Shown one piece after another: positions 11,316 through 17,930 of a stretch of DNA of 34,398 nucleotides. Within the stretch, counting starts at the first letter, position 1. Every line of letters begins with the position of its first letter. The stretch is from Bacteroidia bacterium (GTDB lineage Bacteria; Bacteroidota; Bacteroidia; Chitinophagales; Saprospiraceae): NCBI GenBank assembly GCA_030433135.1, contig JAUILF010000013.1, forward strand, positions 1 through 34,398, in the 5' to 3' direction. The notes beneath the pieces were generated by a model. That model saw only the letters and a list, made by a program, of their open reading frames with translations. It did not search any database and had not been told where the DNA came from. A program made the position numbers and the translations under genes.

Positions 11316-14246
11316 TCAATTATTGACTGTAAAAACCTCCGTCCAGTAGCTGGCTTTCTTGTTGGCGAAATGCTCCAGTTGATGACGGCAACTGAAGCCA
11401 TTGGCAATAATAAAGGTGTTGTCATCTGCCTCCTTCACCTTGTTGAACAAGCGTTTTTCACCCACTTTACGCGATAGGTCATAGTGCTCTTTTTCGTATC
11501 CAAATGAGCCTGCCATTCCACAACATCCCGATTCAATCTCTTCGACTTCCTTGCCACACATTTGAATTAGGGCCTTGATTTTTGCAGTGCCATACAATGA
11601 TTTTTCATGGCAATGTCCGTGCATCATAATCTTGTCATACTTTATCTCCACCGGAAGTTGTCTGCTGCCCGACATCTTCTCCAATAGAAAATCTGCTACC
11701 GGCATAATACCATCAGCAAGAAGTTGACCCAGAAATTCATCCTCCAGCAGGTCAGGAATATCATGATTTAATGCAGAAGCACAACTGGGCTCGCAAACCA
11801 GGACTTTCTTTCCGTCCCTTATGATTTGGGCAAGCTTTTTTGCTACAATCTCTCCTGCATCCCTGGCTTCCCTGAGAAAACCATTGGATATTTTAGGCCT
11901 TTGACAACATCCCACTTCGGCCAATTCTACGTGGAATCCACAACCCGCTAAAAGCTTCACGGTAGAAATCCCAACTGACGGTTCGTGATTATTAAGATAG
12001 GTGTCAACAAATAATGTAACCGTTTCCACGGGATTTTCGGGAGCCCGATAATTTTTTTGATACCAGCTGGTAAACCGGGTATGCGCATAATCGGGAAGAA
12101 TACGCTCCCGGTGGATACCGGCAAAGCGGTGCATCGCATTGCGAAATAGTGATGATCTCTGCACGGAATTGACCACGGATGCCAGTGGTCCGGAGAACTT
12201 TCTCGCAAAACTGGAAGAGTCCCTGATAAAACGTTCGCGGAGGGTGGTGCCCTCTTTGTCGTATTTCATTTGCCAGACCTCACTTTTCAACTTGGCCATG
12301 TCGACATTACTGGGACACTCGGCTTTGCATGCCTTACAGGACAGACAAAGATCCAGGGTTTCTCTGAGCCTGGAAGAAGTCAGGTCTATGGAGTCCATCT
12401 GGCCCGACATTGCCAGCCTTAAGGCATTGGCTCTCCCCCGGGTAGATTGTTCTTCATCCAGAGTTGCCATAAAACTGGGGCACATCGTACCATTCAGTGT
12501 CTTTCTGCATTCACCAACTCCTGAGCACATATGGATCGCATCGTGAAAACTTCCGTCAGCTCTATATTGGTAAACCGTCTCGATTTCTTTGTCATGGTAG
12601 GAGGTGCCGTAGCGCAAATTCTGGTCGATCGGGGGTGCATGGATTTTCTTTCCCGGATTCAAAATTCCGTCCGGGTCAAACAGGGCTTTAACCTGCTCGA
12701 AAGCCTGGTAGATCTGCTTGCCAAAGAACCTTTCGTTGAAGGGACTCCTTACTAATCCGTCACCGTGTTCACCACTCCAGGACCCCTTGTATTTTTGTAC
12801 CAGCTGAAACGTCTCCTCAGCAATATTCTTGAACCTTTGAATGTCAATGGCTTCCCGCAAATCAAGAATTGGTCTTACATGAATTACCCCCACACTCGCG
12901 TGTGCATACATGGCAGCTTCCGTCTCATTCCGATCACATATTTCCCTCACCCCTTCAATGTATTCAGGCAATACATCCAGGGGGATAGCTGCATCTTCAA
13001 TAAAGGCAATCGGTTTTTTCTTGCTTTTCATACCCAGCATCAATCCCAGTCCTTTCTTTCGTATGGTCCAGACATCTTCGTAGGATTGTCCCTCGGGATA
13101 AATGGGAAAGGCATATCCCAGGTCCATTTCTTTCAGTTTTTCGATCATGGGCAATGGCCTGGAAAGTACTTCCTCATCACTGTCACCGTAAAACTCGACG
13201 ATCAAGACTGCTTCCGGGTTGCCTTCGATGACGTGGCAACTTCGCTGTGTAGTAAGGTTTTTTCGGCTAAGTTCTATGACCGTGTGGTCAATGATTTCTA
13301 CAGCAGCAGGGCCGTATGATACCATCGTCTGGACTGCCCTGATAGCCTCACCTAGTTTTTCGAAGTGTGCCAGACATACGCTTTTCTTCAAGGGCAGGGG
13401 CTCAAGATTGAGTTTTGCCTCCAGTATGATGGCCAGGGTAGCCTCACTTCCTACAACGAGTTTGCTCAGATTCCAATTGTCAGTGTGAATGAACTCGTCC
13501 AGGTTGTATCCCCCGACCCGTCGCATTACTTTGGGGAATCGCTCTTCAATTTCATCTCTGTTCTCTTCAATAATGTCAGCAATGCCCCGGTAAACCTCTC
13601 CTTCGCGATCTGATCGGGACGCAATCTCATCATAAACAGATCTGGGTTTTTCAGACAGATGAAGGATGGTTCCATCACTGAGCAATGCCTTGATCTCCAG
13701 CACGTGATCCACCGTTTTGCCGTATAGGATGCTTTTTGTTCCCGAGGAATTATTTCCCATCATACCACCAACGTTGGCACGGCTGGAGGTAGCGGGGTCA
13801 GGAGCAAAGTGAAGGCCATGAGGGGCAAGAAAATGATTGAGGTTATCCCTGACCATCCCGGGTTGGACCCTTACCCACTTTTCTTCGGTATTCAGTTCCA
13901 GAACCTGATTCATATACTTGGAAAAGTCCACAATGATGGATTCCCCTATAGTTTGTCCAGCCAGGCCGGTTCCTCCACCCCGGGCAACTATGCTCACACC
14001 ATGGTCCCGGGCAATGTTGATTATATGAATAACATCTTGTTCGTCTTTAGGCAATGCTACTGCCAAAGGCTTGATCTGATATAAACTGGCATCGGTGGAA
14101 TACAGACCCAGACTTACTTCGTCAGTCAATAAATCACCTGAGATATGTTGCTCCAGGTCGGCTATAAATAAATGTTTGGTCACAGTATTTAATTGAAGGG
14201 GATCAAGATAATAAAACCGACATGAAGTGGTCTCAGCTGTTCCCAA
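11316..14246 (-). CDS. FAD-binding oxidase fused to 4Fe-4S/CCG domains (D-lactate/glycolate dehydrogenase type, GlcD-GlcF fusion); start uncertain, GTG at 14183 is an alternative
   Basis: FAD-PCMH motifs (IVARGGGTGLAGQTIGESIIVDFSKYMNQV; GGMMGNNSSGTKSILYG), FAD-oxidase C (GSWSGEHGDGLVRSPF), 4Fe-4S (CLSCKACKAECPSNVDMAKLKSE), CCG-type (ESGCCGMAGSFGYEKEHYDLS). Sits 6 bp upstream of lldP. Confidence 0.93.
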   Translation of the reverse strand: MGTAETTSCRFYYLDPLQLNTVTKHLFIADLEQHISGDLLTDEVSLGLYSTDASLYQIKPLAVALPKDEQDVIHIINIARDHGVSIVARGGGTGLAGQTIGESIIVDFSKYMNQVLELNTEEKWVRVQPGMVRDNLNHFLAPHGLHFAPDPATSSRANVGGMMGNNSSGTKSILYGKTVDHVLEIKALLSDGTILHLSEKPRSVYDEIASRSDREGEVYRGIADIIEENRDEIEERFPKVMRRVGGYNLDEFIHTDNWNLSKLVVGSEATLAIILEAKLNLEPLPLKKSVCLAHFEKLGEAIRAVQTMVSYGPAAVEIIDHTVIELSRKNLTTQRSCHVIEGNPEAVLIVEFYGDSDEEVLSRPLPMIEKLKEMDLGYAFPIYPEGQSYEDVWTIRKKGLGLMLGMKSKKKPIAFIEDAAIPLDVLPEYIEGVREICDRNETEAAMYAHASVGVIHVRPILDLREAIDIQRFKNIAEETFQLVQKYKGSWSGEHGDGLVRSPFNERFFGKQIYQAFEQVKALFDPDGILNPGKKIHAPPIDQNLRYGTSYHDKEIETVYQYRADGSFHDAIHMCSGVGECRKTLNGTMCPSFMATLDEEQSTRGRANALRLAMSGQMDSIDLTSSRLRETLDLCLSCKACKAECPSNVDMAKLKSEVWQMKYDKEGTTLRERFIRDSSSFARKFSGPLASVVNSVQRSSLFRNAMHRFAGIHRERILPDYAHTRFTSWYQKNYRAPENPVETVTLFVDTYLNNHEPSVGISTVKLLAGCGFHVELAEVGCCQRPKISNGFLREARDAGEIVAKKLAQIIRDGKKVLVCEPSCASALNHDIPDLLEDEFLGQLLADGIMPVADFLLEKMSGSRQLPVEIKYDKIMMHGHCHEKSLYGTAKIKALIQMCGKEVEEIESGCCGMAGSFGYEKEHYDLSRKVGEKRLFNKVKEADDNTFIIANGFSCRHQLEHFANKKASYWTEVFTVNN

Positions 14247-14856
14247 TATCTTGGTTCATCATCCAGTTTTCCCTTTTTATAACCTCCTGCTTGCCCAATA
14301 GCCGATGCCTCTGTCCTCGGATCATTTTCGAAAAGACTATGTATTTTAATTGTTCAGAAAAACACCTGAACACAGATACCAATTTTAACATATGAAGATT
14401 CTGCTCATAGAGCTATTTTTCATTTTGTAATGGCCACATAGCCAGGGACTATCAGATATCATATGTTGAGATATTTTGGACGGGATGGAACTTTTTACCA
14501 TTATGATGGCACCATCTGGAAAATTAGAACGTTACTACGTATCTTAGTAAAAGGTGAAATGCTGCAAGCAAGACCATCGTAAGGGTGATATGTGAGGCAT
14601 TTTATCTTTACCCAACCCCCACTAATTCCAAATGAGGTATTACAGGATACCTGTTACTATCATTGGAATAGTTTAGTATCCAAAAATCTGCGAACACGGT
14701 TAGACTATTGTTTCAGGGATAATATTGTCCTGTAACTAATTAGGCTTTGTGTTATGAAATCCGTATCTGAACACAGGGGATACAACCTCCTGTCACCTCC
14801 CTTTGCATATCGTTTGATCATTGGTCACGAAGATGTTTTTGCCTGGTACTGACGTA

Positions 14857-15100
14857 CTGACGAATCGCTTTGCGATTGTCAGCATTGTACTTTGCGATTG
14901 TCAGCATTAGCTTTTCGCGAATGTCAGTACTGACGACCTTTCGGTGTCAGCGCTTCGCTACTGACGATCCTTCAGATGTCAGCATTCACACTCACACGTA
15001 CTGACGATCCTTTGGATGTCGGCATTCACACCCGCAGCTACTGATGATCCTTCGGATGTCAGCATTCACACTCACACCTACTGACGACCTGCGGTGTCAG
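14857..15100. repeat. Array of about six imperfect-palindrome (hairpin) units; last four at an exact 40-bp period
   Basis: CTGAC-g-[arm]-loop-[arm']-GTCAG units at 14857-14882, 14930-14950, 14961-14982, 15001-15022, 15041-15062 and 15081-15100, plus degenerate half-units between 14887 and 14927. Inner arms co-vary (AATCGC/GCGATT, ATCC/GGAT, ACC/GGT). Confidence 0.9.
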
Positions 15101-15245
15101 CACTTCACATACCTAAACTCACACCTCTTTTCACTAAACTTCTGGCACACTTATCTTTATATGTTTGTTATTATTTGTATATTAAGAAACTTTCCAGCTT
15201 ACAGAATTAACATAAAATTTGTAATTTGATAACTCAGAGTTTTTT

Positions 15246-15266
15246 TTATCCACAGTCTGTGGAGAA
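15246..15266. promoter_or_regulatory. DnaA-box-like inverted pair upstream of the class II ribonucleotide reductase
   Basis: TTATCCACA-GTC-TGTGGAGAA: left half is an exact consensus DnaA box, right half is its inverse with one mismatch; core TCCACAG-T-CTGTGGA is a perfect palindrome. Confidence 0.5.
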
Positions 15267-15341
15267 GTTTAGGAGTGAAAAAACATATACTAATAATTTT
15301 TTATATAAAGTTGCAGATGCAAAATCCCTAGCTTGTAACTT

Positions 15342-17930
15342 ATGAATACTGATACTGTAATAAATGAAGAAGTGATGGAGATCAAGGATCTGAAGACTTT
15401 CTCCCACGCAGAAGCACTGGCCGCCGCTACGAAGTACTTTAATGGTGATGAACTGGCAGCCAATGTATGGATCAATAAATATGCGTTGAAAGACTCGCAT
15501 GGTAACCTCTATGAGTGTACTCCGGATGACATGCATCGAAGAATTGCTGCCGAAATCCATCGCATTGAAATAAAATATCCCAATCCGTTGAGCGAGGAAG
15601 AGATATACGATATGCTCAGGGATTTCAGATACATTGTACCTCAGGGAGGTCCCATGTCTGGAATAGGAAATAATTTTCAGATCTCGTCGCTGTCCAATTG
15701 TTTTGTCATTGGTAATGGTCATGACTCTTACGCCGGAATTATCCGGATGGATGAAGAGCAGGCACAACTCATGAAACGACGTGGAGGAGTGGGACATGAT
15801 CTGTCTCACATCCGCCCCAAGGGCAGTCCTGTGATGAACAGCGCACTGAGTTCTACCGGGATTGTGCCTTTTATGGAGCGTTACTCCAACTGTACGCGTG
15901 AGGTGGCCCAGGAGGGTAGGAGAGGTGCTCTGATGCTCACTGTTAGTTTGAGGCATCCCGATTCGGAGGACTTTATCGATGCCAAGACAGAACAGGGCAA
16001 GGTTACCGGTGCCAATGTATCGATCAAGGTGGATGATGCCTTTATGGAGGCTGTAAAGAGCAAGCAATCTTATGTACAGCAGTATCCTGTCAAAGCTGTG
16101 GAGCCCAAGTACACCAAGAAAATTAATGCCGAAAAACTCTGGAACAAGATCACCTATAATGCCTGGAGGTCTGCTGAGCCGGGAGTGCTTTTCTGGGATA
16201 CGATTATCAAAGAGTCAGTTCCTGATTGCTACGCCGATCTCGGATACGAGACGATTAGTACCAATCCTTGTGGTGAAATACCATTATGTCCTTATGATTC
16301 TTGTCGTTTGCTTGCCATCAATCTGTACAGCTTTGTGGAGGACCCCTTTACTCCCAATGCCAAGTTTGACTTTGAAAAATTCGGGAAGTATGCCCAGTAT
16401 GCACAGCGCATCATGGATAATATCATTGATCTGGAACTAGAAAAGATTGATAAAATTCTGGAAAAAATAGAGCTGGATCCCGAACCGGAGAGTATTAAAC
16501 GGACCGAAAAGGACCTTTGGCTCAAGATCAGAAAGAAGTGTGAGGAAGGTCGAAGAACCGGTGTAGGTATTACGGCCGAAGGTGATATGCTGGCCTCGCT
16601 GGGATTTCAATATGGAACTGCGGAAGCCACATCTTTTGCAGTAGATGTTCATAGGGCCCTGGCCACTAATGCTTATCGGAGCAGTGTAGATTTGGCAAGA
16701 GACAGGGGATCTTTCGGAGTGTACGATTGGGAAAGGGAAAAGGACAATCCCTTCATTCAGCGTCTTGCCGAGGCAGATGAGGAATTGTACCAGGATATGA
16801 AAAAGTATGGCCGGAGAAACATTGCCTTGTTGACGATTGCTCCTACGGGTACCACAAGTTTGATGACCCAGACTAGCTCGGGAATTGAACCCGTCTTCCT
16901 CGTTAGCTATAAGAGGCGTAGAAAGGTCAATCCCAACGACCCTGAAGTAACGGTCTCATTTGTGGATGAGGTAGGGGATTCCTGGGAGGAGTATCACGTA
17001 TTTCATCACAAGTTCAAAGACTGGTTGGAAATCAATGGGTACAACGTGGACCAGGTCATGACACTGGAAGATGAGCGCCTGGATGAGATCATTCGGGATT
17101 CTCCATTTCATGGTGCCACCGCCAATGATATCAACTGGGTGGAGAAAGTGAAAATGCAGGGAGCTATTCAAAAATGGGTTGACCACTCAATCAGTGTTAC
17201 TGTCAATATCCCTCAGGAGACGTCGGTGGAACTGGTGAGGGAAATCTACGAAACAGCCTGGGAATCTGGTTGTAAAGGTTGTACGATTTACCGTGATGGA
17301 TCCCGTGATGGTGTCCTGCTGGCCAAGGAGAAGAAAGACAATAAGGGGTTGTCAGGAACCGTCTATGAGCTCAAGGAATCCGATGCTCCCAAAAGACCTA
17401 AACGAATTGAAGCGGAAGTGTTGAGGTTTAGAAACAACCAGGAAGAGTGGATTGCCGTTGTTGGTCTGCTGAAAGGGAGACCCTATGAGGTCTTCACCGG
17501 AAAAGCAGAGGATATGTTTCGCTTTCCATCCTATGTTAACCGGGGCTGGGTCAAGAAGGAGTACGATGAGGATTCCAAAAGTAACCGGTATGATTTTCAG
17601 TTTCTGGACAAGGAAGGTTACAGAGTAACCATAGAAGGTCTGTCCAGGTCTTTTGACAAGGAATACTGGAACTATGCCAAACTGATCTCAGGTGTATTGA
17701 GGCACGGTATGCCCCTCAATTATGTAGTCAACCTGATCAATGGCCTTAATGTGGAGGAGGAAAGCATAAACTCCTGGAAAAAAGGAGTGGTGAGAGCTTT
17801 GAAAAGATTTATCCCAGACGGTACGAAGGTGGTGAAGAAAAAGTGCCCAAGTTGTGAGGATCACGATGGATTGATCTACAAAGAGGGCTGTCTGATCTGT
17901 AAGAGTTGTGGCTTTTCGGAGTGTAGTTAG
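15342..17930 (+). CDS. nrdJ: Adenosylcobalamin-dependent (class II) ribonucleoside-diphosphate reductase
   Basis: 862 aa with RNR motifs (PQGGPMSGIGNNFQISSLSNCFVIG; RRGGVGHDLSHIRPKGSPV; STNPCGEIPLCPYDSCRL; APTGTTSLM; SGIEPVFLVSYKRR; CKGCTIYRDGSRDGVL) and the C-terminal domain with Zn-finger-like Cys (CPSCEDHDGLIYKEGCLICKSCGFSEC). Confidence 0.96.
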   Translation: MNTDTVINEEVMEIKDLKTFSHAEALAAATKYFNGDELAANVWINKYALKDSHGNLYECTPDDMHRRIAAEIHRIEIKYPNPLSEEEIYDMLRDFRYIVPQGGPMSGIGNNFQISSLSNCFVIGNGHDSYAGIIRMDEEQAQLMKRRGGVGHDLSHIRPKGSPVMNSALSSTGIVPFMERYSNCTREVAQEGRRGALMLTVSLRHPDSEDFIDAKTEQGKVTGANVSIKVDDAFMEAVKSKQSYVQQYPVKAVEPKYTKKINAEKLWNKITYNAWRSAEPGVLFWDTIIKESVPDCYADLGYETISTNPCGEIPLCPYDSCRLLAINLYSFVEDPFTPNAKFDFEKFGKYAQYAQRIMDNIIDLELEKIDKILEKIELDPEPESIKRTEKDLWLKIRKKCEEGRRTGVGITAEGDMLASLGFQYGTAEATSFAVDVHRALATNAYRSSVDLARDRGSFGVYDWEREKDNPFIQRLAEADEELYQDMKKYGRRNIALLTIAPTGTTSLMTQTSSGIEPVFLVSYKRRRKVNPNDPEVTVSFVDEVGDSWEEYHVFHHKFKDWLEINGYNVDQVMTLEDERLDEIIRDSPFHGATANDINWVEKVKMQGAIQKWVDHSISVTVNIPQETSVELVREIYETAWESGCKGCTIYRDGSRDGVLLAKEKKDNKGLSGTVYELKESDAPKRPKRIEAEVLRFRNNQEEWIAVVGLLKGRPYEVFTGKAEDMFRFPSYVNRGWVKKEYDEDSKSNRYDFQFLDKEGYRVTIEGLSRSFDKEYWNYAKLISGVLRHGMPLNYVVNLINGLNVEEESINSWKKGVVRALKRFIPDGTKVVKKKCPSCEDHDGLIYKEGCLICKSCGFSECS

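Follow-up and report, generated by a model that had tools for sequence, protein, structure and literature searches.

A dispersed, REP-like DNA hairpin with a fixed lower stem and a variable but paired upper stem in Saprospiraceae genomes

We analyzed a 34,398-nucleotide stretch of DNA (the window), namely contig C514 of a Saprospiraceae MAG with 577 contigs and 6.3 Mb in total (the host genome, G000). The window contains a FAD-linked oxidase gene on the minus strand and an nrdJ-like gene on the plus strand, and the 1,095-bp divergent spacer between them holds an array of hairpins at positions 14847-15104, upstream of nrdJ on the same strand and 240 bp away from it. Six hairpins lie within 14855-15104, with CTGAC starts at 14857, 14930, 14961, 15001, 15041 and 15081; the last four are spaced by exactly 40 bp, and TRF calls a period-40 array at 14958-15109 with a score of 218. 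These features agree with an earlier note on this DNA, which had described six hairpins with outer arms CTGAC/GTCAG, an unpaired G and changing inner arms, four of them exactly 40 bp apart, two with wobbles (15001 and 15041) and one with a single inner mismatch (14961). That note had overlooked an extra half-unit, TACTGACG, which forms the 5' end of the array, two orphan right arms inside it, and the TA before and CA after the palindrome that belong to the conserved unit. A doubled left half, TACTGACGTACTGACGA, is part of the array. A DnaA-box sequence, TTATCCACA, lies at window positions 15246-15254 upstream of nrdJ, with a near-inverted second copy, TGTGGAGAA; it is not conserved in the congener G005.

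Table 1. Features of the hairpin array and its neighbors, in window coordinates.
Feature	Position	Strand	Basis
FAD-linked oxidase/Fe-S gene, divergent neighbor	11316-14246	-	PF02913, PF01565
Orphan left half-unit TACTGACG	14847-14854	+	Sequence; a like doubled left half starts the G000:C422 array and is also in the C65 and C129 copies
Unit 1, TACTGACGAATCGCTTTGCGATTGTCAGCA, 6-bp inner stem	14855-14884	+	DNA fold -9.3 kcal/mol, z -4.8
Orphan right arm TTTGCGATTGTCAGCATT	14891-14908	+	Sequence
Second orphan right arm, degenerate	14912-14927	+	Sequence
Unit 2, inner arms ACC/GGT	14928-14952	+	Sequence, alignment
Unit 3, inner arms ATCC/AGAT, one C-A mismatch	14959-14984	+	Sequence, alignment
Unit 4, outer arms CTGAC/GTCGG	14999-15024	+	Sequence, alignment
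Unit 5, outer arms CTGAT/GTCAG	15039-15064	+	Sequence, alignment
Unit 6, inner arms ACC/GGT	15079-15102	+	Sequence, alignment
nrdJ-proximal region, includes TTTTTTATATAAAGTTGCAG; conserved with congener G005; outside the repeat	15215-15316	+	Comparison with G005
nrdJ-like ribonucleotide reductase gene, neighbor, not part of the element	15342-17930	+	PF02867, E=2.9e-92

Across copies, the unit reads TACTGACGA-(variable paired stem-loop)-TGTCAGCAY and measures 21 to about 40 bp, with a fixed part made up of the lower stem CTGAC/GTCAG, the bulged G and the flanks TA and CA. Among 98 distinct copies, the bases preceding TACTGACG are near random, giving a sharp 5' edge, and a pyrimidine follows GTCAGCA in all 98, mostly with a second pyrimidine next, indicating that the unit is a discrete element. 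CAC-rich tails, CATTCACACTCACAC, are typical of this genus. In the upper stem, sequence is free to change from one genome to another and from copy to copy within a genome, but pairing is kept: of the 237 pairs at inner positions one to three, 170 are Watson-Crick, compared to 77.4±6.8 when the right arms were exchanged at random among copies (5000 shuffles, with a maximum of 100). Relatedness among the copies of one genome makes this shuffle test inexact, but the excess is wide and is seen across genera. All four pair types occur at inner position 1, and within G000 alone 99.0% of cells are paired versus 90.7% after shuffling.

The hairpin is dispersed in the host genome, mainly in intergenic positions, and its copies there were collected through pattern and model searches only. 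A hairpin pattern allowing up to three mismatches gave 15 matches in G000 and none for its backwards control, the exact-collar pattern TACTGACGA-N(4-30)-TGTCAGCA gave 27 and none, both well in excess of chance, and a covariance model built from 22 copies gave 38 matches. A consensus search of the host and its relatives had been proposed in the earlier note; it recovered the hairpin in G000 and in many other genomes, which also rules against that note's fallback of a local unstable repeat. A second array in the host (C422:28069-28371) has the layout of the window array at 71% identity. Sorted by spacer type, clusters of copies from several genomes fall in convergent (9), tandem (15) and divergent (3) spacers, besides seven cases inside ORFs, mostly short and doubtful ones. 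An all-against-all comparison of neighboring genes yielded no gene family consistently beside the copies, and a neighbor gene as mobilizer or regulon was dropped on that ground. A composite transposon was likewise considered for an inverted pair of copies on C534 (20192+, 24291-) and rejected, the genes between them being a peptidase and a TetR regulator. The array is therefore not specific to nrdJ and is one landing site of a dispersed hairpin.

Three host spacers, that of nrdJ included, lack the array in congeners that have the same neighboring genes. The C129 spacer measures 170 bp with its hairpins in G000 and 24-26 bp between the same two genes in G003 and G002, and at C422 about 750 bp separate the flanking matches in G000 versus about 350-370 bp in G002, G004 and G005. 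In G005 the FAD oxidase-nrdJ pair is syntenic, its spacer holds no hairpin, and the only conserved portion is the nrdJ-proximal ~100 bp (about 15215-15316), so the array is lineage-specific and sits upstream of the conserved region. Movement is read here from a static comparison of MAGs whose flanks are about 70-75% identical, in which some of the differences could, strictly, be deletions in the congeners. Loss in the relatives is possible, but it would require several independent clean losses.

These results bear on the idea that the array is a structured RNA leader or sRNA, with tandem hairpins transcribed toward nrdJ and regulating it. Its position upstream of nrdJ on the same strand fits this idea, as do the wobble units of the window, which are G-U on the plus strand and which the earlier note had taken as consistent with selection on such an RNA. 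The window's own wobble units are a small sample, however, and across genomes the first deviations from pairing comprise 7 cases of G-U on the plus strand and 9 of A-C, which read as G-T on the opposite strand. No preference for either RNA strand emerges, so the covariation does not point to RNA; RNA of the minus strand folds as well as or better than that of the plus strand. The same type of hairpin adjoins unrelated genes, and a survey of nrdJ loci in 80 relatives, many of them distant or truncated, showed none. Rfam 15 has no family above its gathering threshold, and the spacer contains no intrinsic terminator (a hairpin followed by a T run). The earlier note had itself named absence upstream of nrdJ in close relatives as a point against its reading, and this is the situation in G005. 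We rejected the leader on the dispersal of the hairpin, the surveyed nrdJ loci where none was seen, the empty syntenic G005 spacer and the missing strand bias of wobbles, and we give it next to no credence; among the four options listed in that note (structured leader, sRNA, tandemized REP-like repeat, protein-binding array), the tandemized REP-like repeat is the one our results support. Compensatory stem changes can arise by template switching without selection (PMC8794818). This family also cautions that strong covariation at dispersed palindromes is by itself no evidence for a structured RNA.

We found exact-collar matches in 31 of 398 Saprospiraceae genomes. At least two copies are present in 15 of the 398, spread over ten genera, and the highest counts per genome in the family are 27, 20, 15 and 14; chance is estimated to give ~0.02 matches per genome, and single matches without a paired inner stem were not counted as real. 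Three genomes from sister families of the same order (G830, G821 and G021) hold 2-3 copies, while the rest of the phylum sample gave only two isolated matches, which is the chance level. The 113 matches in IMG/VR viral contigs look like chance given the pattern and the size of the collection, and a phage or plasmid carrier was rejected as only 3 of 80 inspected matches have three inner Watson-Crick pairs. Our literature search turned up no record of the collar sequence or of palindromic repeats from Saprospiraceae.

Some copies directly abut the 3' ends of stable RNA genes. Searching 21 genomes for a tRNA T-arm followed by the collar returned 20 matches, compared to 2 for the backwards control. 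Seven of these, from five genomes, adjoin real genes, and in each of the seven the first collar base directly follows the 3' end called by ARAGORN: tRNA-His in G000, G005 (C38) and G100, tRNA-Arg tct in G002 (C604) and G105 (C80), tRNA-Arg cct in G100, and tmRNA in G000. The two G000 copies are on contigs C260 (at 1019) and C440, and the G100 copies on C31 and C120. The tRNA-His copy of G100 has lost its right arm, and a separate T-tailed terminator lies further downstream of the tRNA-end copies in G002 and G100. Contig C15 of G000 carries pseudo-copies of the 5' portion of a tRNA-Leu gene; they read GCCCGGGT[TACTGACGATGAATGTCAGCACAAG]GGTGGAATTGG versus GCCCGGGTGGTGGAATTGG in the intact gene, a difference that amounts to a clean 25-bp insertion without target duplication; the three tandem pseudo-copies were counted as one event. 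We also observed tandem repeats with units of 134 bp and 193 bp, in which part of a tRNA is joined to a minimal form of the hairpin, TACTGACGATRAATGTCAGCA (G000:C15, L410 2333-2811; G021:C27), and this minimal form recurs in five genomes from three families. To our knowledge, REPs are not known to be placed precisely at tRNA 3' ends, and these copies offer a precise way into the question of how targets are chosen.

REPs rank with the most frequent repeats in bacteria, and how they spread is understood for few of them. The hairpin resembles them in being a short, imperfect, extragenic palindrome in many copies. The tag of the GTAG superfamily is missing, as neither strand has a constant unpaired GTAG or GTGG 5' of the hairpin; the foot on the 5' side is TA, preceded by near-random bases, and on the minus strand RTG stands 5' of the stem, with TA and then near-random bases 3' of it. 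Like the CGTC-tagged REPs (Neisseria dRS3, Rickettsia RPE), our element is palindromic, dispersed, clustered in places and has no dedicated transposase known, but those REPs require an unpaired CGTC at one end and a CCA-like tail (PMC3733652), along with an 8-9 bp stem, whereas in our element CGTC is confined to the stem on the minus strand, the outermost five pairs are closed and the tail is GCAY.

We also looked for a flanked transposase. The Y1_Tnp genes of G000 (C34, C146 and C185) and of nine other hairpin-bearing genomes showed no clear flanking copy, nor did the loci examined in further genomes, and a RAYT REPtron was rejected on this negative scan of the loci found; RAYT-type genes do not track the hairpin, with no RAYT-type match in hairpin-bearing G003, G070 and G115, an absence limited by MAG gaps. 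One TGCTGACG copy on a short locus with a Y1 match (G100:C120) belongs to tRNA-Arg. The RAYT gene on C34 of G000 carries the motifs NHVH, WQ and YIHQNP, as in subclass 2.6 (PMC6006769). The TnpAREP palindromes of that Bacteroidetes subclass come from the same phylum, have atypical secondary structures and have copies elsewhere in the genome (PMC6006769), as does our hairpin; the C34 gene, however, is flanked on both sides by its own, different palindromes, GTTTGAAGTTGCAAACTTCAAAC and ATCTGTAGTTTGCAACTACAGAT. These palindromes (L104 4486-4561 and 5341-5363) have a similar core, AGTT/AACT, and covarying outer arms, a pattern opposite to that of our hairpin. With the defining tag and a flanked transposase looked for and not found, the hairpin is not a REP by membership.

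A close parallel is the E. coli REP/BIME system with its group 2 TnpAREP. Both involve a small, imperfect, bulged hairpin that is dispersed between genes, clustered and patchy in occurrence, and both have a constrained lower stem and unpaired bulge with an upper stem that is only structural (PMC8266576). E. coli TnpAREP needs GTAG and the unpaired bulge, contacts bases of the lower stem and cleaves at CT; in the upper stem, a swap to the complement is tolerated and removal is not (PMC8266576). Our hairpin differs from the E. coli one in lacking a 5' GTAG, in its TA foot, in having no flanked RAYT gene that we could find, in an upper stem that is far more variable, even within one genome, and in its exact copies at tRNA 3' ends. 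It shares with IS200/IS605 ends an extrahelical base in the hairpin and insertion without target duplication (here, the tRNA-Leu pseudo-copies), but is a single-hairpin unit with no transposase between hairpins and no conserved 5' target base.

Together, the dispersal, the fixed base with its changing but paired tip, and the tRNA-end copies suggest that the hairpin represents a new small repetitive element family and not an nrdJ switch. We lean, by a modest degree, toward a reading in which the array marks one of the insertion loci of a dispersed REP-like hairpin that works like a REP and is moved or copied in trans by a putative enzyme. Such an enzyme would recognize the hairpin in single-stranded DNA through its lower stem, foot and bulge, and the upper stem would serve as structure only, as has been shown for E. 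coli TnpAREP and its REP. A TnpAREP-like recognizer, a step that we infer, would leave behind this division into constant and free parts. Tandem arrays, nested copies and orphan arms would arise later by slippage or template switching at the hairpins, and any effect on nearby genes such as nrdJ would be incidental or absent. A bolder proposal, which we regard as doubtful, is a separate superfamily of mobile DNA hairpins, with a fixed bulged-G collar and a free paired upper stem, served by an enzyme outside the known RAYT set that prefers exact tRNA/tmRNA 3' ends.

Other explanations account for parts of these data. Slippage and template switching very likely contribute to array growth and inner-stem change, and one could suppose that, together with recombination, they account for both spread and pairing with no enzyme at all, given the orphan arms, doubled left halves and 40-bp tandem copies and the known capacity of template switching to produce compensatory stem changes without selection (PMC8794818). 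This would leave unexplained why the same collar occurs in unrelated genera with sharp edges, at many loci and at exact tRNA/tmRNA ends, and we consider it unlikely. The hairpin might instead have begun as a 3'-end element of stable RNA genes (a processing, termination or integration site) that was later scattered; the seven copies at the first base past an annotated tRNA or tmRNA, and the partial tRNA copies with hairpin in G000:C15 and, by inspection, in G021:C27, agree with such an origin. Most copies lie away from tRNA genes, only a small number of tRNA genes bear the hairpin, and the separate terminators in G002 and G100 and the lost right arm of the G100 tRNA-His copy also speak against it, so we hold this origin to be rather improbable. 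We put little weight on a protein-binding or nucleoid element, in which the collar would be an operator or the site of an architectural or topoisomerase-type protein and arrays would be binding platforms: the fixed collar, intergenic position and few divergent spacers would suit it, but a double-strand operator has no need of a freely varying upper stem that is kept paired, and no neighbor gene recurs. The extrahelical base, the tandem arrays and the tRNA 3' ends also recall the folded, single-stranded sites on which tyrosine recombinases act, such as integron attC. The core arms of attC are GTTRRRY/RYYYAAC; here the arms are CTGAC/GTCAG, units 40 bp apart have no gene cassettes between them and form no cassette array, and again there is no recurrent neighbor gene, making this kind of site highly improbable.

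For the favored reading, a REP-like hairpin mobilized in trans, natural variation in these genomes separates the REP into a fixed lower stem and a free, paired upper stem, a split that matches the E. coli biochemistry in an unrelated phylum.

Several smaller observations concern individual copies and spacers. Some copies are nested: one hairpin encloses another complete one in its loop or arms, and left and right halves are doubled (G005:C38 after tRNA-His; G000:C65 and C129). A 5.4-kb contig of G003 (C611) has a hairpin at 13-40 together with another ribonucleotide reductase gene and a Y1_Tnp gene, which is probably a coincidence. Long CACACCCACACTCACAC runs are found in spacers of this genus (G000 and G003), whether or not the hairpin is present.
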